A DNA stretch of 64,000 nucleotides from Sipunculus nudus (Eukaryota; Annelida; Sipuncula; Golfingiida; Sipunculidae), in NCBI GenBank assembly GCA_026874595.1, contig CM049317.1:19737882-19801881 (forward strand), given 5' to 3'. Positions within the stretch are counted from its first letter, which is position 1; each line of letters opens with the position of its first letter. Shown one piece after another: positions 553 to 58,693 of this stretch. A program made the translations under genes and the position numbers. Under the pieces are notes generated by a model, which had not been told where the DNA came from, made no database searches, and saw only the letters and a list, made by a program, of their open reading frames with translations.

Positions 553-581
<29 letters not shown>
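553..581. repeat. (TA)n microsatellite, left flank of hammerhead element
   Basis: This pure TA dinucleotide run directly abuts the hammerhead-bearing segment. The element at 48741-48839 is bounded in the same way. Confidence 0.95.
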
Positions 582-606
582 ACTCTGAAGAAAAACAACA
601 CTGTTA

Positions 607-654
607 ATTCACAACAGACTGTTTCACGGGATGCGGCCCGATCATCAGGTGAAT
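607..654 (-). ncRNA. Type I hammerhead ribozyme (copy 1)
   Basis: Read on the minus strand, the segment has every part of a hammerhead ribozyme, a self-cleaving RNA. Stem I is ATTCAC (649-654) pairing with GTGAAT (607-612), both written 5'-3' on the minus strand. Core box 1 is CTGATGA (42-48 of the 600s). Stem II is CGGG/CCCG (637-640 with 627-630) closed by a six-base loop. Core box 2 is GAA followed by stem III, ACA/TGU-type (620-622 with 614-616), with a three-base loop. The predicted cleavage-site base is U, at 613, so cleavage falls between 613 and 612. The open helix is stem I, hence type I. The minimal stem III is typical of hammerheads in Penelope-like elements and retrozymes. One oddity is a U.U mismatch at the base of stem II. 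The conserved flank runs to about 572, and copy 2 differs by one loop base over the shared ~85 nt. Confidence 0.85.
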
Positions 655-659
655 GTGGT

Positions 660-677
660 TATATATATATATATATT
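660..677. repeat. (TA)n microsatellite, right flank of hammerhead element
   Basis: This short pure TA run closes the hammerhead-bearing segment on its other side. Confidence 0.9.
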
Positions 678-16754: not shown

Positions 16755-17568
16755 AGAAGAAAATTAACTTTACCATTTTTAACCCTTTGTTCACATTTGT
16801 CATCATTTTGTTTGATATGGGGTCACAACCCATCAGTATTCACACTCAGATGATTGCAAAAGAAAAACATTTAAAATGTATTTAAATGTTTCCGACTCAT
16901 TGCGTGCTTTAATAACTGACTTCGTATACTATAAAAGCTATCCGAGAAAAGGTCAGTTATTTTGGGCGAGATGAAGCTACTGTTGAAGTCGATTTCACTA
17001 ATAAATCCCAGGGAATGATGCCACGGACATGATCTAAGCTCCCCTCATTTCGGCCAGGCGTTAGGTCAGAGGTGTGCATCCACTGACAATACAGAAGATA
17101 AATACAACTTTAAAAAAAAGCTGTGAATGTGATCGGTTATTACATGCACCAATGAAACCTAAACTGTCAAACTGGTCCCCCTACATAAAATTAATTGATT
17201 GAAATATTCTCAGAAATGTTGACTGCTCTCGACTTTCTTGCTCTGTGATAAAGGCGATCCCATTTTCAAATTCGGAAGACACCAGGCATCCTTGTCCGCA
17301 GGCCGGGTTTAACATGTTAATTGTAGAAAAAAAATAAAACTAAGTCTTGGTGTGTGTGTATAGCATTACTGTAAAAAACTACTGGATAGAATCACTGTAG
17401 ACCGTCATATACAGTGCTAGCATTTTACAGTTCCACCGTACGTATTATGATATCAAGTTAATTATACATAAACTATTGATGATCCCCTGCACGGGAACGC
17501 ACTGTCACTGTAATGTAATGAACTTCAATTAATTTCATTCATTATATATGTATTGAACTTTAATTATA

Positions 17569-17700
17569 GCGGACCAAACTGTCTCGCTAGTGAAGCTTGC
17601 TTTACTAGCAAAGCGGTTGAAACGCCGGACATGTGCGCCACCGGCATGGGTTCGAATCCAAGATCGGCCCAGTATTTTCCCCTGCGCAATTTGTCTTCGT
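17569..17700 (+). mobile_element. tRNA-derived SINE-like unit 1
   Basis: It starts gcggaccaaactgtctcgc and carries a perfect RNA polymerase III B box, GGTTCGAATCC, at 17649-17659. It ends in an agtattttcccctg motif shared by all three units. An A-box-like TAGCAAAGCGG lies about 47 bp before the B box. It does not fold as a tRNA (no matching acceptor stem), so a tRNA-derived SINE or SINE-like repeat is preferred. Confidence 0.6.
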
Positions 17701-17718
17701 AAGAAAATGGAGACTTGT

Positions 17719-17850
17719 AACGGGGTGACATAAAAGCGGACCGAACTGTCTTCTTAGTGAAGCTTGCTCTTCTAGCGAAGCGGTGGGAACGCCGAACATG
17801 TGCGCCACCTTCATGGGTTCGAATCCGGGATCGGCCCGATATTTTCCCCT
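17719..17850 (+). mobile_element. tRNA-derived SINE-like unit 2
   Basis: It begins acggggtgacataaaagcgg, with an A-box-like TAGCGAAGCGG at about 17773 and B box GGTTCGAATCC at 17816-17826, then the shared gatcggcc...tattttcccctg end. It stands in direct orientation with units 1 and 3. Confidence 0.62.
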
Positions 17851-17989
17851 GATAAATTTAATTCAAAACAAAATGGGGGTCGTATAAAGTGACTGTAAAC
17901 TTAGTAGCCTAGGGAATAAGCTCACCGAAGGTGTGACCTCTGGGATAGTCATGTTCTGATAGCAGAACGCTCTTAACAGGGGTCCGTGT

Positions 17990-18140
17990 TACGGGGTGAC
18001 ATAAAAGTGGACCGAACTGTCTCGCCAGTGAAGCTTGCTTTGCCAGCAATGGGGTTGGTACGCCGGACATGTGCGCCACCGATATAGGTTCGAATCCGAG
18101 ATCGGCCAAATATTTTCCTGGAAAACATTTGTTTTCGTAA
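17990..18140 (+). mobile_element. tRNA-derived SINE-like unit 3
   Basis: It begins acggggtgacataaaagtgg like unit 2, with B box GGTTCGAATCC at 18087-18097 and the shared 3' motif. The A box is more degraded than in unit 2. About 140 bp of unrelated sequence separates it from unit 2. Confidence 0.58.
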
Positions 18141-25032: not shown

Positions 25033-28000
25033 AAGAAAATTTGTATATACCAGGAACAAAAAATAACAGGGGCTACTGCGGACACTCTGATCGACCATTC
25101 ATATATTGGTAAAAAAAAAGATATTAAGATTTATAAAAACGTCACAGTTATAATCAAGTTTGATCAAATATCTGATGTCATTTCTCAAGTAGCACACGCC
25201 TAGTAGAAAGGCATCGAGGGTTATGCAGGTAGATGTTTCCTACGATTATGTGCCGCACGAGTTAGAATCTACATATTTATATAGTTTCCCTTTGTTTTAC
25301 AGACTTGTATTTTACTGCATAAAAATAGCCTGTCATAATGAACAAATCGATTTTTTTAAATGATATTATCATTTTATATAATACATAAGTAATTGTCATA
25401 TACTGTTTATATACCGACAGCATAATGCAATATATACCTCGGCATTGTCACGGACACACGAAGACGGTAAAAAACCGGACAATAACGACTGAGATTTTAA
25501 AAGTGTAAGCTAAGTCTAAGGTTTAGGATATGATACTCTATAAGAATTGTCTAGAAGTCCTTACTCGGGTCTGCCTATGGTAGATTTATCAGAAAAGTAA
25601 AATAACTTCAAATTAGCCAAACATATAATATACAGCCGCTTTCTAATTAACCTGCTGGTTTGTGTGTCAAGCGTGTGGCACGCGCTTTTTGTTGCTGTTT
25701 GTGCAATATGCTATCCTCGCGGGGCAATAAACCTGAACTACCTAACACCTCATTATCTCGAGCTCACACCTAAGGTGCGATCTGGCGCACCTCGGTCACA
25801 CCACCAGATTTGCCGAAAGTAAGTGGCCATAATACCCCTAATATAGACATGTGTTTTTTACAGTTCTCTCTTTTGTTTGATTCTAAGGGATACTCATACA
25901 CGAAATCAACCTCAAACTAAAGCGGGCTTGCTTCACGACAAAGGACGGGAGACGGTTTTTTTTGCAAGCTCTCCACATCTGTCCTGCTTTCGAACGATCC
26001 TGCGCACTGACGATTGCAAATTATGCCATTTAATTGTATGAGACCAATAAATAAATTAACTGCTATTCATTACTTATTTACGAAGAGTTTATTGATAAAT
26101 TAAAGAGATGTCTTACTGCATATTACTGATAAATACAAGACGTACAAACATGTCATACGCACTCGGGGAAACCAGAAAAGATTACGGGTATAGACACCAC
26201 AGGCAGTGAAAGTGTTAATTTAAATGTCTGTTGTACAGTGCGAATTAGAGTTAAGTGTAGTCAGTGAAGTAAACCTTTCCTCTGCATGGGATTTAAGGGT
26301 CACAGGTAAAATTGTATGATTTTCTGTCGCGCATCAGTTTTAAAATTGACGTTTTCAAAAGAATTTAACTTGCGGCAGACGCCACAGTGCCCGTACGATC
26401 TAAATAATGACCACTAGGATATTCTGTCAAATTAAAGAACGTTTCTGGCAAGATATTAGCTGTTTAACTTAAAATTATATCGGGATGGATTTATATGAAG
26501 AAGGAAACAACTGTATAAACCATAACTGATTAGTATAGATATACTAGTATGCTCTGCTTCTCGTAAACTTCTCACCATTATTGAGACAGGTAGCTGTAGT
26601 AACAAAACAAAATACATGTTCACATCATTTCACAACATTGTTAACTGTTTGACATGGGAACGAGGATGATGACCAATTCTGTCACTAGCTTCACACATGC
26701 TCGTTCACGGGTGCTGACCACCAAAGGGACTTGGAACTTAATAAGGCTTTAGATCACAGGCGATCAGTACACGTACATTATGTAACTGTTAAGCGATTAA
26801 TATGCCTAATTATTGCTCAAAATGGTAATATCCTAATTTATTTGTTTTGTTCAGCCTATTAAAATGAAGATTTTTCCTGTATGGGTGTAACGTGATCCAT
26901 GGCCCTAATATTAGTCAATCACCCTTGGTATAACATACAAGTCAGAGATACGAGTAACACGGGCCAATCAAAAGGGACATTGTATAGAAAACATTCTAAG
27001 TTTATTCGTCTTTATTAATCTTGCCATCAGAATGTTTACATTCAAACTGAGAAATGATAGAAATCGTTTAATTAATCCATGATTCTTTCCAGATTATTAA
27101 AATATGAGTAATTTAGAATTTTGTCGGACATACGAAAAAATCAATTTCTTAATCAATTATTCATGTAATAGCCTTATGAATAATCTTTTAATTGCAGTTG
27201 TTCATACGTGCATAAGTCTCCCGGTTAAAACTTGCGCATCTGACCGCAACAATACGCCAAGCGGACCCACTCTGGGGAAGACGTCCCACTATAAAGGACT
27301 GTTACGTTCTTCAGTACATTTATATATAAAAAAGAAGAAAATATATTAACTGAAGGTAGTACCTGAATTTGGCTTTAGTTTTCTCAGCGTTCCCCAGTAA
27401 GGTCATATTCCATACACCTACATCAGCTGTTTGTCTTTTTGCCTCTTGCATAAAAAGTTACTTCTCGGTAATATATCATTTTTAAAAATTCCAGTTTGCT
27501 TTACAGATCAAATAAAATGTCCTGTTTGCTTTAGAGTTCATATATCTAACATCTAACACAGAACACTACATGTATAGAAATAACAAATTTATGGTTTTTT
27601 CTCATCTGTATTAACCGAATTCTGATGCAATAAACAAAACAAAACATATTCCTTCAAAGATTGGTTATTTTTTTCATATTATATCCATATGTCGAGAAGA
27701 GCATTGATTATGATTCAGGTTTAGAGTTCGGGCTAGGAATAATCTATCCAAATAAATCTTTCATTTAGGTATTGCAGCATTTTCTTTTTTAGGACATGCC
27801 CTCGATAATTTACCATGTTAGGTATAACGGACATTTACGCTTTACATCAATGAAAACAAATTAAATGCTAAATAATGTATTTGTTCAAGGCTCCAGATGG
27901 GCATATAAGACATTTAACTCTTGTTCCACATGGCATAGAGAATTTTCCACTTGTCATCCACCTTCTTCCAGATAGCCAGACCTCTGCAATTCAATTAAAA

Positions 28001-28845
28001 AGCAAAATATTGTAAAATACCAACATCTGCTCAAGTATACTTATTTGTTTGAGGTATTCACGAGAATGTTAAAAATAAGGCAACTGTTTCATTTTTATCA
28101 ATACACCTGATAAGCAGATACTGATAAATGAGACAAAAGGGGAATTACCACTCAAGCAAGAAAATGCATGTTCATCTAGCATTCACCAGACAGGTCCATA
28201 TTTTTTCTTTAAAAAATATATCACATAAAACCCCTTTAGGGACAATTTTAAAAGACGTTAGTGGCGCATTTTTGGGAGTGCCTTTTAATAAAGATGTAAA
28301 CATAAACAAATACATAAAAGAACTCTTAACACTCTAAACAAAATTTCATTAAAAACTAAAAACGCAGATGAAACGTAAGATAATCGCAAAAAATGGCTTA
28401 AATCAGATTTCCTGCAATTTATATATTTATTTGTAAATAATTTTTGTATGATCTTTACAAAAAAAAATCATTTCGCTTGATCTGTATAAAAATGTTTTAT
28501 ACAATTTTATTCCAAATATAAGGGTGTTTGAGACCAAAATAAATATTTATATTACACATTATTAGTAAAATAAAGCGAATGTTTAATATATCTCTGGAAA
28601 CAAATATTTTTTAATTACCTATAGTCATTTTGAAAATGAGCATGAGTCATAATGATGGAATAAATGAAAACATACTTTCCCGTTTCCAGCACTTTTCCGT
28701 TTGCTCCATCCTCCTCATACCGGACATCCTGTATGGCAATATTTCCCATGATGTCTAGCTTCCTGCTACGGGACGTAGCATCCTTGACGTATTTCAGGGC
28801 GCTACGGATCAAGGCCAAGATGTTTGCTTGTAAAAAAAATATGAC

Positions 28846-28909
28846 ATATTATATATATATATATTATATATAAATATAAATATATATATATATGCAATAT
28901 ATATATATT
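28846..28909. repeat. Interrupted (TA)n microsatellite in intron 2 of copy B
   Basis: A TA-rich array with several single-base interruptions, 20 bp from the exon 3 acceptor, in the same place as the arrays of copies A and C. Confidence 0.9.
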
Positions 28910-29512
28910 GCAATTAGTACATGGTATATTGTTTTAGACATGTACTACATCTTTATTTATCATACAGGATACACTGTTATATTAATAATGTGTTACATCA
29001 TATTCTTATATTAAAAATTTACAATATTAAAAATGTACATATTAATTACATATTATCATTGAAACACATTGTTTTAAAAAAAAAGCTGGTTATGACTATA
29101 TAAAGAGATTGTTTATCTAGATTTGCATAGGACAAGCTTTTTTTTTTTGTTATTTGTGTGGGTTTCCTTGAAGGTGTATATACATTTGAAAGTTTAGTCA
29201 AAGCTAACCTCATCGAGAGTATTACATTATAGCATTTGATAAAATGATGAATGGGCTATTCTGATAAGGGATCAATAAAACAATTCGCTTTCAACATCAG
29301 ACAAATAAATCAGGTTAATCTTGATTAGATGTACAATTAACTCTGACCTTTGCCGGTGGTTGCTTTCTCTCCTGGGGGTAGGATGTAAGCCCCGGGCGCG
29401 TACAGTTGATCGTACAGTTGTTCAGGGTCTGGATGGTCTGCATGCCGGTGAAAATAGTTAAGCTGTCTTATGATCTGTTATTCATCGCTCTCTGAAAAGA
29501 CATTCCAGGTTA

Positions 29513-29515
29513 ATA

Positions 29516-29564
<49 letters not shown>
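29513..29564. repeat. (TA)n microsatellite in intron 1 of copy B
   Basis: It lies about 22 bp beyond the exon 2 acceptor. In copy A the matching place (11598-11606) has only ataaatata, and in copy C none. Confidence 0.95.
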
Positions 29565-29566
<2 letters not shown>

Positions 29567-30135
29567 GAACCATTTTTACCAAATAGGGCATATTACATTG
29601 AAATAATTTGAAAAAAAAAATAAAGAAACAATAAACAAATGAACAAATGAAACTTTTTGGTTGAAATAAGGGCAATAGACGCACAAGAATCACGTTATCA
29701 ACTAAACAACCTACGCTTTTTGACATACTGTTGCTCAAAAATCAAACTAATTCTTTGATATTCTGCTAAATCACGGTAGCATTTACTGTTTATTTATTTA
29801 TTCTAAACACCAAGTATTTAAGAAATTAGGAGCTAAAACAATACGTCTGTTAAACATCTAAATACAAGTTAGCTGCTCTATAGAGAACACACATAGCACA
29901 TGTAAGGCGTCAGGGGATGTTCAAGTGACTGATGGAAGGATCATCTATATATCTACTACATTCTCGCTATTTTTCTATCAATTTATCTATCGTTCTCTTA
30001 CCTTCCTGCCCAAATACCACCTCCGACAGACATACGGCAACAAGAGCTGCTTGTAGGAGACCCATGGTTCGAACCTGTCGCTTCAGCTCCCTTGATTGGA
30101 TAAACTGGAAATGCGTCGGTATGGCTGATATTCCC

Positions 30136-30144
30136 CTTTATATA
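30136..30144 (-). promoter_or_regulatory. TATA box of NTF2-like gene copy B
   Basis: On the minus strand it reads TATATAAAG, about 75 bp before the ATG, and aligns with TATAAAAAG of copy C. The flanking 120 bp upstream are conserved among the three copies. Confidence 0.6.
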
Positions 30145-31628
30145 GTTTAGGGAACAAAGAGCCCACATATTCCTGCGAATATCTCCCCTTGGCGGATATT
30201 GCATACGTGTCAGCTGCGGCTGCTAGTGATTACCTTGTCATACTCACCTGATGTTATTCTTGTGAAAAATGCATCCAAATAACATCTCAATTATACAATT
30301 ACACATTTACGAAAAGTCATCAGCAATCTGACACATGATCTATACATACGTAAAGACATGCTTTGATAACTCAAACATTGATCATATTGTTCTTCCTGTA
30401 CACCTTAATGGAAAACTGCTAACCAAAATACAGTTCTTTCTTAACAAAGGATACTTAAACTGTAATCTACATCCTGTGTTAAGAGATACAATAAAATGTT
30501 ATTAGAAAAACATGAAAAAACTATTTATACAAGCGTGGTAAGTACAAGAAATAGTATAATGTGTATTTAAAAGTTATCTGTGCAGTACCGGAGACAGGTA
30601 CTATTCAAACAATATCTAGCTAAAATGAATCTAAGCTGTAAGATTGATAAATATACACTATGGGACATGCACAACCTTCTGTTCTCATTACAAAATGTAT
30701 TCCAGGGAAATAAATCGTCTTCCCTAGAAGATGACAAATTACAATATATGCTCGTGTTTCCGAAATTATCTTAGATGAAGATGACTGCTGCCTCGACATT
30801 CTTTGCAATGACGAAATATGAATAACAATCCGGGTAATGCAGTAGTGTGTCAGAAGCATGAAAATTTGGTTGTGCTCTAGAAAGACGGACTTTATCTGAT
30901 AGATGATCGCTGCGTCCGTAACATATTTAAAACACTTTGGATTTTAAACTAATTCAACCAATATTTGGTTCACTTTCCGACACGGATGAAATGGTCGCCA
31001 TCTATTTGGATGCTTGGAATCTGAAATGTCGCAAACTAGGGTAACCACAGAATAAGCAGTGTTCCTTAAAGTCGAAATACTTTGCTTGAGAAAATAAGTT
31101 ATCAATATGTTTTCAGAACAATAGCTAAAAATACGGAAGAAATTACACCAAGTTTTCCTGTTTAAATACGATGAAATTACACCGACTTGACTATGATTAC
31201 ACATTTTTCTTCAATCAACGTTTATAAAAATTGCCCAGGGTGCAAGCTTGGCACCCAGCGGATTTAGAATCACAATCATCTGGAGAACAAAATCATATCA
31301 TATTTTTTTTCTACCACAGAGCAAGGTTAGGACTGATTTTTGGGTTTGGCAACGGTACTACAGATAATCAGGCCGAAAAAAAATAGAAATCGGTTGATTT
31401 TACACTCAAAAATGCATTCGTGTCTCTCCGCCCCTTTTGCGTTCATCGGCATATGGGAGAAACTCTAAATCTGGATCTAAATGTGGATATATACAATCCT
31501 TAAGATTTTTTTTATAATTTGTTTCTTTTAATCATGCACCATTGAAACTGTATGAAAAACAGATAAGACCAATTTAAAACAAAGGTATTCAGGTTCACAA
31601 AAAAAAATGGTGACAACATGTTACAAGG

Positions 31629-39460: not shown

Positions 39461-40401
39461 ACAGCCTCGACCTTGCTTTGGAATAAGATATACAGTAGCC
39501 TGTTTTTGGCTATTAGTCAATTTGCCTTATATATGGTTCTCGTTTAAACAACTATTAAATTCTAAATCTATCAGTTAAATATATTGAGTGTAAAAGTGTT
39601 GTATTAAGTGTTAAGCAGTCATTTCCGGGCGTTTTATTTCCAGACAGATCGTTTAAAGTTTTGTACAATTGTTGACTAGTAAATTCACCTTCACAGTGTT
39701 ATCTCTGTATATCCGCTTACACCGGAATGTCAGTGGAATTGAGATAATTTTGGCAATGATCTTCGATTAAATTGGATATTCTAGAGTATGTTATTAAATA
39801 ATACAAGTGTAATTCTCTGTTTATTTTCTGTTGATCTGTAATTTCTTTGGTTGTTTTTATTGATAAGTGTTCTCAACAACGTTTGTGCCTTTCTGCTCTT
39901 TACAAGACCTGTAAAGTACTTACTGTTCCTTTCTCCTCCTTCATACCATTGCGCTCTTGACCTCAAAATTATGCCATCATTTATGTATTTATAATGATCA
40001 TCAAGTTGTTTTCGAAGATTTTTGTATGTGTCCATAAGCTCTTGTTCAGAATTAATATTCCCCTATATTTCCTAAATTTCTTTTCCAAGGCAAAGTATTT
40101 TTTTCTCTCTTAACTTCAGCTTTTTTTCCCTCTAGAAACGAATAGTAAACTCGGAACATTTAAATTTCAGGAATTCCGACAACGTTTCAATGGTCAACCG
40201 TTTCGTAACTTTTAGAAAATTCTTGCTACCACAAGGGAACATTGTCTGATAATTGTTGACAAAAATCATTATCCCGAGTTGAATTGTTGAACTTCCGTGG
40301 TGCAGGACCTTGACCTTGGCTATGTTCATTATTAAGACTAATAGTGAAAACCGAATGGTCTGTGGACACAGATGGAATTATATAAGTGGATGTCACACAT
40401 T

Positions 40402-41086
40402 GCTGCAGACTATTTGACACGAGATAGTGATCCAGTCTCTTTTATCGCAGAGGTGTTAACAAACTCCATGTAAATTGACGAACTGTCGGGTTTCGCATTG
40501 TCCAGATATCACACGAGTCAAGAGACTCAATAATATTATTTATCGACATTATTGTGTGAACTTTTAAAAGAGAAGTATCGGAATCCTCATCCCTTAATGA
40601 CAAGCTTCAATTAAAGTCTGCGCCCCAAATAATATTTGTATTATCATTAATATCAATATCCTGTAAATGGTTACGCAGTTTGCATAAAAAGGAAACTTGA
40701 TTATTTTTTTTCTTGGAAAATATGAATTAAAAAAGAGAAAAGCTACAGGCTATTTGACACAAGATAGTAATCAAGTCTCGTTTATCGCAGAGGGTTTAAC
40801 AACCTCCATGTAAATTGACGAACTGTCGGATTTCTCATTCTCCAGATATCACGCGAGTCAAGAGACTCAATAATATTTTAAGCGACATTATTGTGCGAAC
40901 TTTTAAAGGAGAAGTATCGGAATCATCATTCCTCAATGACAAGCCTCAATTAAAGTCTGCGCCCCAAATAATATTTGTATTATCATTAATATCAATATTC
41001 TGTAAATGGTAACGCAGTTTGCATAAAAAGGGAAATTGATTTGTTTTCAATATTTGAAAAAATATGAATTAATAAAGAGAAAATAA
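40402..41086. repeat. Tandem direct duplication (about 340 bp x 2) inside the LINE endonuclease
   Basis: Copy 1 at 40402-40741 and copy 2 at 40742-41086 abut exactly. Both start gct(g/a)ca(g)... tatttgacac and end near tatgaattaa...gagaaaa, with scattered base differences. The duplicated stretch is endonuclease-coding DNA of the LINE. Confidence 0.9.
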
Positions 41087-42843: not shown

Positions 42844-45800
42844 AACTGTCTAAGGTAAATCATGTGTTCCTTGTGTTTGTCCGTTAAAGTGGGGCAATCA
42901 ACTATCTGACCTTTATAACTAATTGTACTCACTTGGAGCATAAATACTTTGAGCATAAATATGGCCAGAAAAACATGGATATCACCGCACGTGAGCAGCT
43001 TGTCTTGTTTATACCAACGTGTTTATAATATATTGGGGCCGGCCAAAATAATTAAAACAACTTCAACAAGACCGTCTGATAGCAAGTCAGATAAACCAGA
43101 GCTTTGCAAATGGCGTTTTGCAACAAGGAACCTTTCAACCTCCGCATATATGCAACCTACCACCTTAGGTTATTTAATTCCCGTGTACCAACATTGCTGT
43201 GTTTACGAACATGCTGTTGATAAACCAGTTCATACATCCTTCTCGAGGGCGTTATTGGAAGTTTTCACAACCAAAATTACATACAAAACGAAAGCCAGAA
43301 ATCACATCAATTCTTTTTTTTCAGAATGACGGTGAATGGGCGCCTTATAAAACAAAGGACTGCAAGGGGGTAGAAAGCATTTACGCTATTGGACTAAACC
43401 TATAAACCTAAATTAACCTATGTCATATCACATTAACAGGAGTGGATGCAAGGGGGTGCAAATTTCTCTGATTTTGCTCTAACAGCAAATTATTTCTTTG
43501 ATTAAAATAATCCATACCCTTAAATTTATTACCGTTATATGATATGTGCTGTCAAAGACTCGTTAAAATATAGTTCAAAATGTTAAGGATAGTGGTATCT
43601 AGTAATAGCAACAACTCCATTATAACTACATTGTAAGCCATAAGGAAGCAGTGTCCACCGGCAACTCCTAAAACAACGTACAATACCTCTCACATATCGA
43701 TATATCATTTGCACATAAGCTAAACCCTCCTCCCCAAAACTCAATTTTACACCATCATACCATAAAGTCAAGGATTTAGTTAAACCAAACACTTACAAAT
43801 CAATTTATTTTGCAGAGCAGTTTTTCTCAGCCTTTGGGTGAAAGTAAAGGAGACAAAGGAAAATTAATGCAAGATTATACAATGATTTCAAAGATCTATT
43901 TTGCTTATGGGCTGCATTTATAGATGATGGTTAAATCAGCCAAGATACAGCCACGGCCCGTTAGGGCGGCCCGGAAACAGAGTTTTATGAAGCTTCGCAT
44001 GTTGGTCGATAGTTATAAACGTGATATAAGGTTCTGCGCCGTATCTTTAACAATGATTACAGTGATAATGTCCATGACACTTGACTTCATTCTTGTTTAC
44101 TTGATTTATTCCTCATAAAGTTAAATGAGGGAGATTTATATATGAAACTTCGTACTCTGTAGCATTACCTTTCCCTTTGGAGATATACCATTATGTAAAT
44201 ATTAAGTGTGTAAGTACAATGAAATTGACAACAATGTCAAGGGACACAACTTACAGAATATGTTATTATGTGCGTGGATGTGCGTATGTTAACCTAAATG
44301 ATCTTCCAAGGTTTTGTACTGACAAATTAAAATTGTTCGTGCCGTAGTTACTTTGGTCTAGGTAATTTTAGAAAGTCATAATTTTGAACAAATTATATGG
44401 TGCTGATACCTCCACCTGTTAATTATGCAACCAAAGGCCATGCCATTTACAGGTCGGTAGACATATCACATGCAGCAGGCATAAGAGGCACATGCCTCTT
44501 CACCTGAACACATTAGTCTATCAAAGTGTAGTAGAATAATGTTCAAAATTGTATAAGAATTATGTAAAGCTCATTCGTCGGGTGTGCCTTTGGCAAATAA
44601 ATGACATGTAGAGACGTCATAGGCAGTGAAAGTTTAATTTAGATGCCAGGTGTACAGTTCAAATTGGCGTTAAGTGCGGTCAGTTATATTTACATGTTCT
44701 TACCAGGTAGTACACGATCACAGGTGGAATTATATGATTTTCTGTCACCCATTCGCTTTAAAATTGACTTTTTTAAAGGAATGTAACATGTGGGAGAACG
44801 CCAAAGTGCCCATGCAATCTAAAAAATGGTCACTTTGATATCCTGCCAATTATAGAACGTCACTTGCTAATCATTAGCTGCTGGTCTAAATTAAAATTAT
44901 ATTGAGAGGAAATTATATGAAGATGGAGACTAAGGAATAAATTATAACTGGTAATAACAGTTATACTACTATGCTCTGCTTCTTTTAAACTTTTCACCTC
45001 ACCATTTTTAGACAGGAAGCTTTTCTAAGAAAGCAACAAACAATATTTCCTTGATGTTTCTAATTTGTCACCAAAACGTGACGGTATATGGAGTCCCTGT
45101 TATGACGGGCTTTAACTGAAGTGAAATACTCGTCCTGATTTTTGGCAATGCTATTACCTGATTTACCTAGGAACGAGAATGATAACCAAAGTTGTCACTT
45201 GCTACATTCATGTACGTTCAAAGATGCTTACCTCCAGCCGAACCGGGAACTCAATTAGGCTTTAGATCACGGGCGATCAGTACACATTCATTATGTACCG
45301 GTTCGGTGACTGATATGGATATTCATTGCTCAAAATAATAATCTCGTTATTTATAGGTTTAGTTCAGCCTATTATTTTTTTGTATGGGTGAAAAGGTAGT
45401 CCATGACCCTGACTTTAGTCAATCTCCCATGGTATAAAATACAGCACAGGGATATACCATTCATCTTAAGTTTATTCGTCTTTATTAATTTTGCCATCAC
45501 GAAGAATGTTAACATGCCAACCCGAGAAATGTTAGAAATCGTTTATTTAATCCACGATTCTTTCCAGATTAGGAAAATACTGAGTTATAAAGAATCTTGA
45601 AGGACATTTAAAAATATTTTTATATTAAACAACTTATAATACAATAAATAAACCAATACATATTTCCTTCAAACTTTCGTTATTGTTTATTATTATATCC
45701 AGATGTTAAGAAGAGCATGGATTTTGGTTCCGGTTTAGAGTAGGGGCTAGGAATTATCTATAAAATAAACCTTTCATTTAGGTTTAACAGCATGTTCTTT

Positions 45801-45893
45801 TTTTTTTTTTGGATATGCTCTTGGTCATTTACCATGTTTGTATAACGCACACTTACGCTTTAAATCAATGAAAACAAATAAAATGCTCAATAA

Positions 45894-45899
45894 TTTATT
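45894..45899 (-). terminator. Poly(A) signal of NTF2-like gene copy C
   Basis: AATAAA on the minus strand, 33 bp after the stop codon of copy C. Confidence 0.55.
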
Positions 45900-45931
45900 T
45901 TTGCAAGGCCCCAGATGGGCATTCAAGACAA

Positions 45932-46894
45932 TTAACTGTTGTTCCACATGGTATAGAGAATTTTCCACTTGCCATCTACCTTCTTCCAGACGGTTAGAGC
46001 TCTACAATTCATTAAAAAAAAAACAAATATTGTGAATTATCATCATGTGATTAAGTATCCATATTTGTAAAAGGGATTTATGAAAACTGTTAGAGGCAAC
46101 TGTTACATTTTTATGTATAAAACTGATAATAACATACTAATGAATGAAACAGTAGAGTAATTATCACTCATGCCAGAAAATGCATTTCCTCTAGAATTCT
46201 TCACACAGGTCCATCTGTTTTTTTTTTCTTTAAAAGATACCACATAGATCCGCTTAAGGCTCAAGTTTGAAAAGATGTTAGAGGCGTATTTGTGGGAGTG
46301 CGTTTTATTTAAAATGTAAAGGGCAAAAAATACTTTTAAAAATTCTTTACAGAACAGAATTAACAATTAAAAAGCAGATGAAACGTAAAAAAAAAAGTTA
46401 CCATTATCGTGAAACAAAATGTTTCAAATCAGTTTTCCTCCATTTATAATATGTTGGTCTGTTCACCTTTTTTACTTTTGTATGATTTTGACCTAATTAA
46501 TTTGCTTGTTCCGTATAAAACTAGTTTTTATACGATTCTGCTCCAAATATAAGGGTGTGTGAGACCAACGTAAATAAATATGACACTTTTGACTGTAAAC
46601 TGGAAGCAAATACTTTTTAATTAATTATAATCATTTAAAAAAATGAGCATGAGTCGTAATGATGGATTAACTGAAAACATACTTCCCAGTTTCCAGCACT
46701 TCTCCGTTTGCTCCATCCTCCTCATATCGGGCATCCATAATGGCAATATTTCCCATGATGTCTAGCTTCCTGCTAAGGGCCTTGGCGTCCTTGACGGTTT
46801 TCAGGCCGCTACGAAACAAGGCCAAGATATTTTCTGGACGAAAAATATAATATAATACATATATATATATATATTTATATATATATATACATAC

Positions 46895-46942
<48 letters not shown>

Positions 46943-48016
46943 CAATTATTACATGGTATATTGTTTTGACAGGTGTTACGTCCTTATTTATCATAAAGGA
47001 AATTTTGAGTTAATAATACTCATAACATAATATTCTAAGATTAACTATGTACATATTAACATTAACACACATTGTTAGAGTAAACACATAGCATGTGCTG
47101 GTTATATAAAGATATTTTTTTTTTATTTAGATATACATATGCACAAGCTGTTTGTCCTTTTTTTCAATTGTGTTTCATTGTATATACATTTTGAAAGATT
47201 ATTAAATTGACCTCATCGAGAGTAATATATTATAGCACTTGATAAATGAATGAATAGACTATTATAATAAAGAAACAAAAGTATCGTGCTCAAGATCAGA
47301 AAAATAATTCATTTTACTCTATGTTAGATGTAGAATTACTCTGACCTTTGCCGGTGGTTGCTTTCTCTCCTGGGGGAAGTAGGTAGGCCCCGGGCGCGTA
47401 CAGTTGGTCGTACAGTTGTTCAGGGTTAGGATGGTCTGTATGCCGGTGAAAATAGTTCATCTGTCTCAGGATCTGTTGTTCATCGCTTTCTGCACAGAAA
47501 ATAACATGTTTTATTTCACATGAAACTTTGTACCAAAGGAGGACATTTTACATTAAATAATCGAATCAAGGTGTTGCTAAATAGACAAACTTAAAGAAAC
47601 AAAAAACAAATGGACACATATGAACATTCCTGGTGAAACGCATTAAAAACACTTTACCAACCAAACAAACCACGGTTTGAGACAGACAGTTGCTCAAAAG
47701 TTAAATTAATCCTTTGCTATTTAACTAAATCACTGTAGCCTTTACTGTTTATGTATTTATTCAAATCCCTAAGAACCTATGGGCTAAAATATTACGTATG
47801 TTAAACATTAAAATATAAGTTAGCTGCTCTATAAAGAATACACACAACACATGTAAGGTGTAATGGGATGTTCAAGTGACTGATGGAGGGATCATCTATA
47901 TATCTACTAAGTTCTCGCTATCTTTCCATCAATTTATCTGTCGCTCGCTTACCCTCTTGCCCAAATACCACCGCCGACAGACATACGGCGACAACAGCTG
48001 CTTTTAGGAGACCCAT
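45932..48016 (-). CDS. Secreted NTF2-like (SnoaL/DUF4440-type) protein, copy C, intact
   Basis: Four exons on the minus strand: 47953-48016, 47346-47489, 46683-46833 and 45932-46001. Introns are GT-AG with phases 1, 1 and 2, and the joined frame is 142 codons plus TAA. Residues 1-19 or so form a signal peptide (MGLLKAAVVAVCLS then AVVFG), so the mature product should be secreted. Mid-protein QLYAPGAYLLPPGEKATTGK matches the DLY-x-DA-xLLPPG-x-G pattern of SnoaL/DUF4440 domains. The C-terminus, VWKKVDGKWKILYTMWNNS, matches the family ending (WK-x-DG-WKI-x-D-xWN). Length suits a single NTF2-fold domain behind a signal peptide. NTF2-like proteins bind small hydrophobic ligands or act as isomerases or cyclases; the actual substrate is unknown. 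A TATA box lies 71-79 bp before the ATG. Two further copies in the window are broken, so this is likely the working member. Confidence 0.88.
46848..46940. repeat. (TA)n microsatellite in intron 2 of copy C
   Basis: A TA array with several TACA interruptions, starting about 15 bp from the exon 3 acceptor, in the same place as the arrays of copies A and B. Confidence 0.93.
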
Positions 48017-48086
48017 AGTTCAAACCTGTCGCTTCTGCTACCTTGATTGGATAAAATGGAAATGCGGCGGTATGGCGGATTTTTCC

Positions 48087-48095
48087 CTTTTTATA
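48087..48095 (-). promoter_or_regulatory. TATA box of NTF2-like gene copy C
   Basis: On the minus strand it reads TATAAAAAG, beginning 79 bp before the start codon, and aligns with the TATA box of copy B. The conserved upstream block extends to about 48215. Confidence 0.65.
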
Positions 48096-48722
48096 GTTTT
48101 TGGAACAAAGAGCCCACAGATTCCAGCAAATATCTCCCCCCTGGCGGATATTGCCTCGTGTAAGCTGCGACTGTTTGTGATTCGCTCGTCATACTCACCT
48201 GAGGTTATTCTTGTAAACAATGCAATAAAAAAACCATCTGAACGGTACAAATACACATAAACGAAAAGTCATCCGAAATGTAACATACAATTCATACATA
48301 CCAAAACAGCACGCTTTGATGGCTCCAAGATTCATCATGTCGCTCTTCCTGTACACCTTAACGGAAATTGCTTACTCAAAACAGTTATTCCTTAACTAAG
48401 TATACTAAAATTTAAATGTACATCTTGTGCTTGGATATATATAACAGGAACAAATAATAAAATGTTATTAGCTAGAGACGAATAACTATTTATTTTTGCA
48501 TTGAACCTAAAACAAAGGGTGACATATGTATTAAAAAGTGATCTGTGTTGTAAAGGAGTCAGGTACCACTCAAACAATATCAGCAGTTTTTTTAATGTTT
48601 TAATTCTTATACATAAATTAAAAAAAGGCAAAAACGAGGGACGGAAGTGTGTGTTAGAGCGAGGTATAAGGTAAATCGTTTTGTATGAACATACGATCTT
48701 TGAATTTAAATTCATCATTATC

Positions 48723-48739
48723 ATATATATATATATATA
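48723..48739. repeat. (TA)n microsatellite, left flank of hammerhead element 2
   Basis: A short pure TA run immediately before the hammerhead-bearing segment. Confidence 0.9.
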
Positions 48740-48767
48740 ACCACGACGTTAGCTTCATTCTAACCAC

Positions 48768-48815
48768 ATTCACCTGATGATCGGGTCGCATCCCGTGAAA
48801 CAGTCTGTTGTGAAT
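48768..48815 (+). ncRNA. Type I hammerhead ribozyme (copy 2)
   Basis: The same self-cleaving RNA motif as at 607-654, here on the plus strand. Stem I is ATTCAC (48768-48773) with GTGAAT (48810-48815). Box 1 is CTGATGA (48774-48780). Stem II is CGGG (48782-48785) with CCCG (48792-48795) and a six-base loop. Box 2 is GAA (48797-48799). Stem III is ACA (48800-48802) with TGT (48806-48808) and loop GTC. The cleavage-site base is U at 48809, so cutting falls between 48809 and 48810. A further CAC (48765-48767) can pair with GTG (48821-48823), extending stem I past a 5-base internal loop that may make the usual loop-loop contact. U.U sits at the foot of stem II. The whole element spans about 48741-48839 between TA arrays. 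Confidence 0.87.
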
Positions 48816-48839
48816 TAACAGTGTTGTTTTTCTTCAGAG

Positions 48840-48840
48840 T

Positions 48841-48867
<27 letters not shown>
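48840..48867. repeat. (TA)n microsatellite, right flank of hammerhead element 2
   Basis: A pure TA run closing the element. It follows the sequence ttcttcagagtt, as does the TA run of copy 1. Confidence 0.93.
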
Positions 48868-48871
<4 letters not shown>

Positions 48872-50872
48872 CCACACACACACTTCTCTATCACTATATA
48901 GTTCGTATATGTAATTTGCATGGACAGGATTCTCTGCATTATTGTGTTCTTTTAAAAAACACTGCAGACCTTTTCACAATAAACAAAATTGGAAGAAAAC
49001 CATGCATTAGCAAATTAAATTAAACACTTGGCACGAAACAAGAAGTAACGTGCATTACCATTTAACCTCGTCGGGTGATTGTTATCTATTATTTCTATGA
49101 GTTTTTGTTGATGCTTAGAGTACAGAAATGTTCGATGCAGCCAAGGTTTAGAATAAAGTCATCCATAATTCATAAATTCACGTCCAAGAGCATGTTAAAA
49201 ATCTCTTTGTTCAAATACATCCAATTACATTTGAGACTCATTTTAATAAAAAAAAACTTTGATTACATGGATCATTGCTTAACACTATATAAATAATCTT
49301 TCAAATATTGTACATACACTATGTCCGCAGAAACATTTATGTAACATATATAATATGTTTACATGCAGAGTCCGAAATAATTTATAGAATAATTATTAAG
49401 CTCAACGTTATAAAAACTGAAACTATAGTACAATACTTAGCACAAGAAGACAGGATGTACTTGAGTAGTTGCTAACTTTATATCTTGAAAATGAAATCAA
49501 ACAAACGTGTCCATGAGGCGTAACCAAACTGAACGAAAATAAGTACATGGGTCAAAATTGACGCTTCCGGAAAAAAAGTACATTTTTTTAAACACATGGC
49601 TTGTATATGTGAGCTCTATATCTAGTCCGGTAAAGCAACCATGATAAGAGCTATTTAAAAGTGTGATTCAATTTTATGTTAAGATGGAATGTTAAGGTAT
49701 TGAGACTTTAAATTTTCATATTTTATCGTTATGAAATCACTAAGGGATTAGCTCAAAGAACGATTGCTTGCATTGACACTTACAATTCCTACACCTGGCT
49801 TTCAGTTCTTTAGATTTCCATATAATTAATAAAAACTGTCTGTAGGGAATCTCTCACTTGTAAACGTGAAATAAATACTGATCCAAAAATCAAATATATG
49901 CAATACTAATATCATAAACTATAAAATTGATGAAAGCAATAATTGGTTTAATCAATGTCTAGAAATAAATGTATAATCTGACATTAGTATTATACTTTTG
50001 TAATACGGTAAAAGCAACACTTAACATTGGTTTTGTGACTGCATTCCTGTTAAAGTGCTCTGTTCAGATTTATCAATATAAGACTTTTTAAATGGCCTTT
50101 ATCATTGTATTCCCCAGTACCCTTTTCAATATCTGAATATGATTTCAAAGAAATAAAAATATCAATATGGGATTTTTTTTATCTGAACTGTAGATACGTG
50201 ACACACATTTTAAATATATTTCAGATATTTCCAATGTCAAAATTTTATTTTAAAAGTATAATCATTAATTGCACATATCTTTGTATCATGTTATCAGGGT
50301 TACAATCACCGCATACAATTGATATTGGCCTGTCTGGCGTGTTAAAAGTGAGAGACAGGTATTCCTCATTAAAGAATCGTATGAAATTTTTATTAATATT
50401 TGTAAAATCGATTGTAATTTGTACATTTTATATCATTCTGATTGTTATATCCCAATATTTTCTATTGACTCAATACATATGTGCCGTTCACACTTCAACT
50501 GAATGAATGACCGAAATCAATTATTTGCAGCCATGAAAACAATTCAAACGGGAATACATAAAGCGCCCGGACAATTAGAAGATTAATTAGCATGCTGTTA
50601 CCCCTGAATAAATTGCAGGTAAAGACTACGTTTTCTTTATCTACATACAAAGCAAACATGTTTGTGTAACTGTTAATGATCCCGCTATATCTTTCTGTGC
50701 CGTCTCCTACAAACAAAGGTAACAGGGCTATCGTCCTTGACCATTGACCTTGATCTTGTTTACTTGAAACACTTTGCAAATCAACATATATATGTAATTT
50801 ACCTCTGTGTATGTTTTTCTTTGTAAATATTCTACCTTGTAAGTATTGATAAAGGCCCAGTGAAATGAAATG

Positions 50873-53739: not shown

Positions 53740-56700
53740 TTCCGGTGTCATGGCCGAGTAGTTCAGACGTATTTCACAAGGGCTCATCAATCAACATCAT
53801 TGTGTAATACTGAAAGCTTATATAGCGAGATAATTTGGTGTGATAATCATGCCCAAGCGACCAAATACTCGCACAACTGGCAGACATAGCGAAGGTAGCA
53901 AGGACTATTACCTAGCATCTAGAGAAGATAAAATCCCCCATGGACAATAGTGGACAATACAATGGGCAATATGAAAACATGGGTGCGAGGACTACATGAT
54001 CAACTGTCTGGTCGGATAACTAAATTTCATTCAGAACTCAAAACAACATTGCAAACACTGTCAAAAGAAAACACACAATTAAAAAAAGTTTAGATGAGAT
54101 AGAAGCAGGGTTGAACTATATGAGTCAAATCATGTTAAACAAATCCAAAATCCCCCCAAAAACCAACACCACAGAGTCACTAAGTAGAGAAGTGCAAATA
54201 GAGACAAAGACAAAATAATCACAGAGTTACAGAATGAATTGACAATGAATTAAACTAACTGGAACGATATCTATATGAGTGGAATTTGAGATTGATAGGA
54301 ATGAAGGAATCCCCTTCTGAGTCGCAAGAAAACTATAAAGATATAGTGGCCAAGTTCATTTCACAGAAAAAAAAGTACTAGGTGACTTGTTTGAACAACA
54401 AGTTATGGAATTGGAAAGACGGGGGCTCTACCTCGACATATTATTTTAGACTTTACAATGGAAACGTCAGAAATGATTTGTTGTTGGCTCGAAAGAAAAA
54501 TATCAAAAACTCTGATATTATGTTTGTAAAAGACTTGACGCAAAAAGATTACACACTGAAACAACAGCTAAAACCGCAAATTGAATCGGCATACAATAGT
54601 GGAAAGCGAGTCTGCTTCTGGATCGGACAATTGTACATTGAAGGCACGCCTATTCCTGGCCAGAACAACAAGTAGTGAGACTATGGACGCTTAAGCTGAA
54701 TAAAAATATTTCAAAGGATATTTTCCCACGGGCCCCGAGTCCCTAAGCAACTGGCAGGATTTTTCAGACCAAGTGAAAGATCAAGACACGTGCTTTGCCA
54801 TGATGTGGTATCTTGTTACATTTCTGCGGGAACTGCCTTGGAGACGAGGAAATTCAGAAAAAAAGAAGACAACTTTTTACTGGCTTCAAAATAAAAATAA
54901 ACATTGTGTTATAATGTTACAAGAAACTCAATATACCTCATGAAATACATAATGTTTTCAAAGATGACGAGGGGGGAGTAATTGTCCTTGATAATGTAAA
55001 ACTAAATTTAGCTAATGTATATTCCCCAAATATACCAAATATACAATTTTTCTATAATATATGTTGTGATTAATCCAACGAAGGATAAAACACATAAACC
55101 TGTGGGAATAAATCAGATCTCTTCACTTATAACTGAATGGATACATGAACTCGGTCGTATAGATATTTGGCGACATACGAATCCTAAAAAAATGGAATAC
55201 CCTCGGTAACGTCAAAGACCGCGATATACAGCCGGTAGGCTGGATTATTTTCTCATCTCCAGAGGTCTGTTGAAATATGTTAATCACTATTGTACTTTGC
55301 CTGGTTACAAAACTGATCATTCCACGGTAGCTCTTTCAGCAAAATAAACGAGCTCCAACGTTTTGGAAACTTAACGTTTCATTATTAGATGATAAAGTTC
55401 ACGTTAAGAAAAAAATCTATATCCCGAATGCAGGGGAAGAAAACAAAGATGCCAACCCTTCGCTTTTACTGAATACGATTAAAATAGTAATAAGAACAAA
55501 TTGCGTCAGTCACAGCATTAAAAAAATCAGCATTTAAAAAAAAATACCTATCTCCAAATTAGAAAAAGACTTGATAGATCTTAAAAAAGATCAATTAATC
55601 GAGAATATTATTTGATAACAAATCAAAGAAATTGAGTAGAAATTATATAAAATTCGTAGAAGTAAAGTCAAAAGGTGGAATTCTTAAAAGTAAGAACATA
55701 TGGTACGAAGACGGATAAAAAAAATTCAAAATACTTTATGAATCTCGAAAAAGAAATTAAAATAACAAAGAATACAGAAATTGAATACTGATGACAGATT
55801 GATTAATGATTAAGATGAAATATTTAATGCTGAAAACTTATATCTTCAAATATCATATACAAGCGAACCAACACATGGTGTTAATAAAATTGATTTGTTT
55901 TTGTAAAAATACCAGAGCAAAAAGGAAAATAATGAGCGGATTTCATGACCTTCAGAATTATCAGTGCAAGAACTAAAATTCGTTTAAAAACGGGAAATAA
56001 CCAGCCACAGAAGGTTTACCAGCTGCATTTTATAACTACTTTTTGGAAGATTTAAATAAGTACTTTAAAGATTGTGTAAGACACAGATTCAAAACCGGTA
56101 AATTGTCATTAAGCCAAAATCAAGAAATAATCATTCTGCTACCAAAAAAAAAGGAAAAGACCATAAATATTTGAAAAATAAAATTGGAGGCCATTAACTA
56201 TATTAAACTGTGATTATAAAATTATTTCAAAGAATAAAACAAGCACTTCCCAGTTTTATACATAAATATTAGACTGGTTTCATAAACGACATATATAGGT
56301 GAAAATATAAACGGAACATTAATAGATGCCATATAGCACAAGAAACTTATTTAATTGCGATCGATTATAAGAAGGTCTTTGATTTTTGGAATGGGATTAC
56401 TCATATAACTCTTTAGAAATAGCTAATAAAGATAACAACACTGTATAAATAATTGAAGTATTATACAAAGATATCCAAAGTTTTGTAATAATTAATTGGT
56501 ATAGTTCTACATTTTTTTAATATTACTAGAGGAGTATGACAAGGATGTCCCCTCTGTCCTTATCTATTTGTTTTAAGCGTTGAATTATAAGCTATAGCAA
56601 GAAGAAATTTTGATAAAATAAAAGGTATAGGATTCGACGACTGTAATTTCAAAATAAGTCATTACGCCGACGATTCGACTTTATATGTTAAAAGATACGC

Positions 56701-58693
56701 AAAGCATTGAGAAGTCATATTTTTTTTTAGGAATTTTGAGTTATTTCTGGTTTAAATATAAATAAAGAAAAAAAAAACTTCAGTTATGCCAATAATTAGG
56801 GGAGATACAAGAGGCAAAGATGAGGTGTTGAAACTTGGTCTGATATGCACTGATGGAACATTTAACTAACTTGGAGTGTTAATTAACCACTGTTTAGAAA
56901 ATATTTTCAATACAAATTATCTGCCCAGGGTAGACAAAATTAAAAAATATAATAACAATATGGCCTAAAAGAAACCTGACACCTTGGGGGAAAATAACAG
57001 TTATAAAAACAGTTTTATATTATCACAATTATTTATTTAATGTCCGTATTCCCGAGCCATCCCCAAAATGTAATAAAACAAGTTGAAAAAAACTATATAA
57101 ATTTATATTGAACAAAAGAAGAGAATTGATTAAAAGAAACCCGCTTATTGCTTCGATCAGTGAAGGGGGTCTCAATATCATACATTTGAACACACAGAAT
57201 GTATTGTTAAAATAGTCTGGTTTAAAAAGTTGATTAATTTGCATAAAGCTGACACTTTTAAACTATTAGTCTTTAAGTACCTGAAACTGGGAGAGAATTC
57301 ACTTTTTTTGTAATTTAACCGCAGAGGATAGCAAAAAAAAAAAAAATAAGGAGACCCTCGACCATGTGGAATGATGTGATGCTTTCTTGGTGCACTTATA
57401 ATTATCACACCCCGAGCTCATACACAGATATATTACCTCAGTTACTGTGGTTAAAATCGCACATTAAAGTAGATGGCCAATTCATATTCTACAAAAAAAT
57501 GTATAGAACAGGTATAAAGAATATCGCAAATTTAATGTGCATCTCTAATTCAGAAAGTATTTGGCGGGATCATGAAGGATTTTGCAATAAAGTTAATATA
57601 GTTCTTCTGACCTACAACAGCCTACTTAGATCCACCCCGTCACTTGGCAAGAAATAATAAGACAGAATAATCATAAGGATATTACATTGTCACATGAATA
57701 AAAATTTGATAGTTTAATTAAGATGAAGCAATTTACAAAAGATGTCTATTCAGAATTATTACCGGATGAAAAAGAAAATCCTGAAGCCTGTATTGTAAAA
57801 TTGTAGTCAAATCTCGCGCTTGAATCTGGGAATAAAATATATAGAGGCTTCAAAATCACTTTTTTCAACAATACCGACAACATTACAATATTTCCAGTTC
57901 CGAATTTTTCACCAAAGAGTAACACTTAATCCATTTCTTTGTAAACTTAAAGTGACAGAATCTAAATATTGCACTTTTTGCAAATCAGATGAAGAAACTA
58001 TTTTACATTTATTCTAAAATTGTAAATATTCTAAACTTTTATTGCGGGAAATATTACTAATATTAAAAGGAATTGCCTCCTTGAAGCAAAGTTTCACTTG
58101 GAAAGAAGATTAGGTTTTCCTTAGTTGTAACGAGAGAAAATGGATTAACTTCTTGGCTTTGCTTGTGCTTCAGAGATCCCTGTACATTAGTAAATGTTAT
58201 AAACAAACACCTTTAGTGCCTTGGTTCCACAAAGTTTACAATAGATTTTTTTTTTTTTGCATCTAAAGAAAAATATAGCTATTAAAATGATAACATCAAA
58301 CAATTTGACCTTAAATGGACCCCGTTAAAATGCTTGATCAAAAAGAAATACTTCTACTAAGTCTTTAGAGTCCCAGACAGTTTGTATAATAAGATCAATG
58401 TTACCACATAAAGTCCAGATTAAGTTCAGTAACAGTTTACAACATATATGTATTGTTTGTATGTGTTTATGTTGACATATATTTATAAATGTATGTATGT
58501 ACTTTAGAGTGCTGATTAGGATTTCACATAACAAAACTTGTGTTCCCAAGCACACACCAAAAAACATTTATTGAATTTGGTCTCTGAATATCAGCCAGTT
58601 CAGCACTGTAATTAGCAACGATAGTGTGTGATGTAACTTATTGTGCTTTTGTTTATACATTGTTTGTATGTGTGGTCAGAATAAAAAAAAATA
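53740..58693 (+). mobile_element. Near full-length LINE (L1/Tx1-like) retrotransposon, defective
   Basis: About 4.95 kb, inserted in block X copy 2. The empty site is 43265-43275, and the flanks cgcaataac (53731) and cacaaccaac (58694) look like a worn target duplication. ORF1 starts at ATG 53849, with a coiled-coil-like stretch near 53970-54140 and an RRM-like part at 54300-54675. The endonuclease has LQETQ at 54917-54931, RLDYFLIS near 55230 and TDHSTVAL near 55315. RT has WYEDG-K-NSKYF near 55705, ENINGTLIDAI near 56300, QGCPLCPYLFVLS near 56540 and YADD at 56663-56674. A zinc-knuckle-like end, YCTFCKSDEETILHLF-x-NC, is near 57967-58030. The 3' end is an A-rich run. Numerous stops and frameshifts make it inactive. 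Confidence 0.9.

Follow-up and report, generated by a model that had tools for sequence, protein, structure and literature searches.

A 48-nt segment of the minus strand, lying between (AT)n arrays, resembles a hammerhead ribozyme. This raises the question whether the resemblance is genuine and what kind of element carried it to this position. The window, that is, the whole stretch of DNA that was analyzed, comprises 64,000 bases.

The hammerhead motif and its two copies

Read on the minus strand from 654 to 607, the segment (copy A) is ATTCAC-CTGATGA-T-CGGG-CCGCAT-CCCG-T-GAA-ACA-GTC-TGT-T-GTGAAT, and the presence of a complete type I hammerhead motif was confirmed. Its parts are as follows.

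607..654, minus strand: type I hammerhead motif of copy A (sequence reading and descriptor search)
654-649/612-607, minus strand: stem I, 6 bp
648-642, minus strand: core CTGATGA
641 and 626, minus strand: U10.1 and U11.1, respectively
640-637/630-627, minus strand: stem II, 4 bp
625-623, minus strand: GAA
622-620/616-614, minus strand: stem III, 3 bp, with the loop GTC at 619-617
613, minus strand: U17, with the predicted cut at 613/612

The core was compared with the list given in the available portion of PMC3088659 and is complete (C3 U4 G5 A6 N7 G8 A9, G12 A13 A14, A15.1-U16.1 and H17). By complementarity, stems of 6, 4 and 3 bp are connected in type I order; stem III opens with an A-U pair, and a U precedes the predicted cut. 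The sequence-only reading, which had listed CTGATGA, GAA followed by A-U, the U at the cleavage site and three stems of these lengths with a 3-base loop in stem III, was thus accurate on both the invariant positions and the layout. Positions 10.1 and 11.1 at the foot of stem II are unpaired in the motif (U.U), as had been described. They had also been called unusual; a U10.1-U11.1 foot has a published precedent among natural hammerheads and is said, in the accessible text of PMC3088659, to be the mispair supporting most activity.

A second copy with the same fold layout had been reported and was located on the plus strand. The features shared by the two loci, and those particular to one, are listed below.

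48768..48815, plus strand: hammerhead motif of copy B, predicted cut 48809/48810, one base different from copy A, in loop II
582..661, minus strand: whole shared element of copy A, TAACCAC-hammerhead-TAACAGTGTTGTTTTTCTTCAGAGT, 80 bp
48761..48840, plus strand: whole shared element of copy B, 80 bp
582..606, minus strand: 3' part of copy A, 25 nt, proposed counterpart of a Penelope-like tail
48738..48760, plus strand: upstream piece found in copy B only, 23 bp, starting with a second TAACCAC

AT repeats aside, the sequence common to both loci amounts to 80 bp, and the two elements are identical at 79 of these positions, the sole difference falling in loop II, outside the core and stems. They lie in opposite orientation, 48 kb apart, in flanks unlike each other. 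A deletion between the two TAACCAC repeats of copy B may have yielded the form of copy A, or copy B may have gained the additional piece. Within the element, at 594-627 (minus strand) and 48795-48828 (plus strand), GTGAAACAGTCTGTT precedes a similar sequence, GTGAATTAACAGTGTTGTT, and the predicted cut falls exactly at their junction; this succession is possibly an internal duplication.

The descriptor required CTGANGA, GAAA, U16.1, H17 and stems of at least 4, 3 and 3 bp. It was matched twice in the 64-kb window, by copies A and B, while 300 dinucleotide shuffles under identical criteria gave 0.03 matches per window (0.003 at stems of 6, 4 and 3 bp), a comparison that includes a foot mismatch permitted only after the motif had been seen. 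A full core with three stems in order is thus rare by chance; being so alike, both copies count as a single evolutionary event. The bare core pattern is not rare: CTGATGA followed by GAAA, with stems disregarded, occurred four times against 1.07 expected, and at least four matches were obtained in three of 100 shuffles.

Searches with the Rfam covariance models gave no hammerhead match at the gathering score, none across the whole window at E up to 5, and none in pieces of 501 and 81 bases at E up to 10. The sequence-only reading had proposed this search, and the missing minus-strand match is one half of what it had named as speaking against a ribozyme. The weak Rfam matches that did appear lay nearly all on AT-rich repeats or repeat edges and were taken as artefacts. 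According to the part of PMC3088659 that is available, the final alignments of that study exclude hits without a paired 10.1-11.1 foot. A model built from copies A and B themselves (R1) scored the element of copy A at 116 bits and found no further credible match in the 64-kb window, where the next match reached 14.7 bits (E 0.46). An exact-pattern search of viral and prokaryote collections, which are poor places for an animal element and may omit records from the window's own genome, also gave no match. Since there are only two copies, covariation provides no evidence.

Position in (AT)n arrays and proposed origin

Both elements are bordered by arrays of AT repeats.

553..581: (AT)n array adjoining the 3' end of copy A
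660..675: (TA)n array adjoining the 5' end of copy A, its first two bases common with the element
48723..48739: (AT)n array adjoining the 5' end of copy B
48841..48867: (TA)n array adjoining the 3' end of copy B

Repeats of this kind were found on both sides of both copies, beginning 25 nt after the ribozyme motif in each. The other AT arrays of at least seven units number 22 and cover just 862 of the 64,000 bases (1.35% of the window), so it is improbable that both of two insertions fell in such arrays by chance, unless the arrays came with the element. Because both ends of the element lie in (AT)n, a target-site duplication is indistinguishable. The flanks of copy A (1-552 and 676-1600) had no match elsewhere in the window that could represent an empty site. 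Around copy B, paralogous matches end at 48657 and restart at 48896, beyond the arrays, and demonstrate no empty site.

Much of the region 8187-63999 consists of such paralogous stretches, spaced at about 16-21 kb and mostly 63-86% identical (for example, 27609-30616 and 45623-48581, with 75% identity), which perhaps form a tandem gene array. A repeat of 130-145 bp occurs several times within 17568-18140, at about 83% identity. Open frames at 54382-57654 (plus strand) and 39784-40062 (minus strand) resemble what we take to be LINE fragments; four frames tested at these loci gave no match at Pfam cut-offs. The CpG observed/expected ratio of the window is 0.75, a value more in keeping with an invertebrate than with a vertebrate.

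As the best explanation we lean, by a modest preference, towards copies A and B being short retroposed remnants of a Penelope-like family in TA repeats. The same short element, a small type I hammerhead followed by a 3' part of about 25 nt, would have inserted into (AT)n microsatellites at both loci. The insertions would most likely be 5'-truncated or solo fragments of a Penelope-like terminal repeat, copied by the reverse transcriptase of the family once its nuclease had opened AT-rich DNA. Multimeric transcripts of the parent element would be cleaved by the ribozyme immediately 3' of U17, probably in a dimeric form whose stem III is shared by both partners, and perhaps only when the protein of the element is bound. 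A solitary copy as found here is probably inactive.

The motif, its two copies, the (AT)n setting and the near-palindromic stem III were observed directly; the Penelope-like origin, the mechanism of insertion and the cleavage are what we infer. Membership of the family goes no further than that, since the frames tested contained no Penelope ORF and the loci showed neither a target-site duplication nor a tandem unit. Eight selected open frames, seven lying no more than about 2.5 kb from a copy and one of these seven at copy A, gave no Pfam match, and neither a pLTR pair nor a pLTR-ORF-pLTR structure was found around the copies. A truncated Penelope-like copy would lack the ORF.

Predicted folding and alternative readings

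Folded by itself, the 48-mer gave pairing probabilities of 0.89 for stem I, 0.96 for stem II and 0.009 for stem III. In the 80-mers stem I dropped to at most 0.0002 while stem II remained at 0.96, and with the AT arrays added to the folded sequence stem I reached 0.001-0.002. In the best fold of the 80-mers from both copies, UCUUCAG pairs with CUGAUGA (6 of 7 positions) and UAACAG with the stem III strand CUGUUG. This pairing between the 3' part and the core was better than the bare hammerhead by 11 kcal/mol in the 80-mer. When the hammerhead pairs were enforced in 79-mers and the rest left free, the energies were -9.1 and -9.5 kcal/mol, compared with -14.5 and -15.7 kcal/mol unconstrained (a gap of 5-6).

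The sequence-only reading had also noted that type I hammerheads with a tiny stem III often work as dimers. The stem III strand ACAGUCUGU is predicted to form no hairpin alone; in a dimer it can pair with itself as 4 bp, U.U and 4 bp (-8.3 kcal/mol), and because of this self-pairing the dimeric hammerhead gains much energy. For copy A it was calculated at -25.3 kcal/mol as two strands and at -20.5 kcal/mol as one strand with a 60-A linker, compared with -12.8 kcal/mol for two monomeric hammerheads. Palindromic stems III are on record in natural hammerheads, as stated in the accessible part of PMC3088659. However, alternative dimer folds were predicted to be more stable than the dimeric hammerhead, and the probability of the dimer stem III was at most 0.06. 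Thermodynamic folding as modelled here does not favour the hammerhead in either monomer or dimer, on energies that leave aside tertiary contacts, protein and co-transcriptional folding.

These predictions bear on a reading in which the hammerhead is fortuitous or long dead and its carrier is a short mobile or microsatellite-borne element, such as a DNA-transposon derivative or a unit spread by slippage between TA arrays. We consider it unlikely. The Rfam results and the departure of the predicted fold from the hammerhead are in agreement with it, as are fold energies unexceptional against shuffles (z of -0.9 and -1.3 for the 80-mers, and between -0.3 and -0.8 for five further pieces) and a set of two copies that offers no covariation. 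However, a full core with three ordered stems is rare by chance, and the only base that differs between the copies lies in loop II, away from the core and stems.

Slightly less likely still is that each locus is what is left, in monomeric form, of a metazoan non-LTR retrozyme. Such elements are non-coding, carry a type I hammerhead and depend on a helper reverse transcriptase that copies them from a small circular RNA. Retrozymes reportedly hold most classical animal type I hammerheads, with about 5000 copies in the mussel genome, according to the available text of PMC7229834. As far as that text describes them, they share with the present element the type I hammerhead, the short non-coding form and the host, here presumably also an animal genome, but their units, of about 170-400 bp, are repeated in tandem. 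At our loci there is one motif each, with only 80 bp in common, 48 kb apart and in opposite orientation. The retrozyme status that the sequence-only reading had raised is unsupported, no tandem unit being found at either locus. A 339-bp tandem pair at 40402-41083, with copies about 90% identical, was rejected as a retrozyme, as it contains no hammerhead.

The 3' part might also be a built-in off switch, masking CTGATGA and the stem III strand by base pairing until the ribozyme is freed by a protein or by a dimer partner. Both copies show the two pairings named above in their lowest-energy fold, and a protein-assisted hammerhead has been reported for an Anolis element (PMC11167929). We nevertheless regard such a switch as very unlikely, as the pairing may be due to chance. 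Among 500 dinucleotide-shuffled tails of copy A, 31 blocked stem I as strongly and 48 folded equally well; among 500 mononucleotide-shuffled tails the numbers were 6 and 48. The predicted pairing of the copy A tail with the core is thus not clearly beyond that of shuffled tails. An equally slim prospect is that a non-autonomous element of about 80 bp spreads into TA microsatellites while its tail holds the ribozyme inactive until it is bound by a partner RNA or by the mobilising protein. A literature search over titles and the starts of abstracts, with most subscription papers outside its scope, returned no 80-bp hammerhead element in TA repeats.

Comparison with known hammerhead elements

Cervera and de la Pena in 2014 and Luense, Weinberg and Breaker in 2017 reportedly described the minimal type I hammerheads that Penelope-like elements carry. 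In the accessible portions of two reviews, the pLTRs of these elements carry minimal type I hammerheads with stem III weak or absent, which are dispersed by the thousand across animal genomes and may be active in dimeric form (PMC7761336, PMC6155905). The likeness to these small ribozymes noted from the sequence holds for the layout and the tiny stem III. Both have the type I order, a canonical core, a tiny self-complementary stem III and possible action as a dimer. Stem III has 3 bp and a 3-base loop here, whereas in Penelope-like hammerheads it is mostly missing according to the same portions of the reviews. Other differences are the U.U foot of stem II and the lack of an ORF or pLTR-ORF-pLTR arrangement among the features found at our loci. 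Solo pLTRs are known from a rotifer, as given in the available text of PMC3846280.

The Poseidon element of Anolis carolinensis (PMC11167929) offers a further comparison for remnants of presumed Penelope-like origin. Its hammerhead is inactive in vitro without the protein of the element, its insertion favours AT-rich DNA, and an optional tail of 30-40 bp ends a fraction of the copies. The terminal-repeat hammerhead, the short tail present in many copies and the AT-rich preference would be points of similarity. The Poseidon ORF starts in the ribozyme, while the frame opened by the ATG inside CTGATGA closes here after 13 codons. Ribozyme mutants of Poseidon left insertion in vitro unchanged, and no RNA ends were observed at the cut site (PMC11167929); cleavage may therefore not matter for spread.

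The element adds a family to an already known kind, whose motifs occur by the thousand in animal genomes. In its accessible part, a 2020 review called it "still a mystery" whether small Penelope-like hammerheads are active and what role they have (PMC7761336). Dimeric or protein-assisted cleavage could conveniently be tested on a compact family in which stem II has a U.U foot and stem III is self-complementary.
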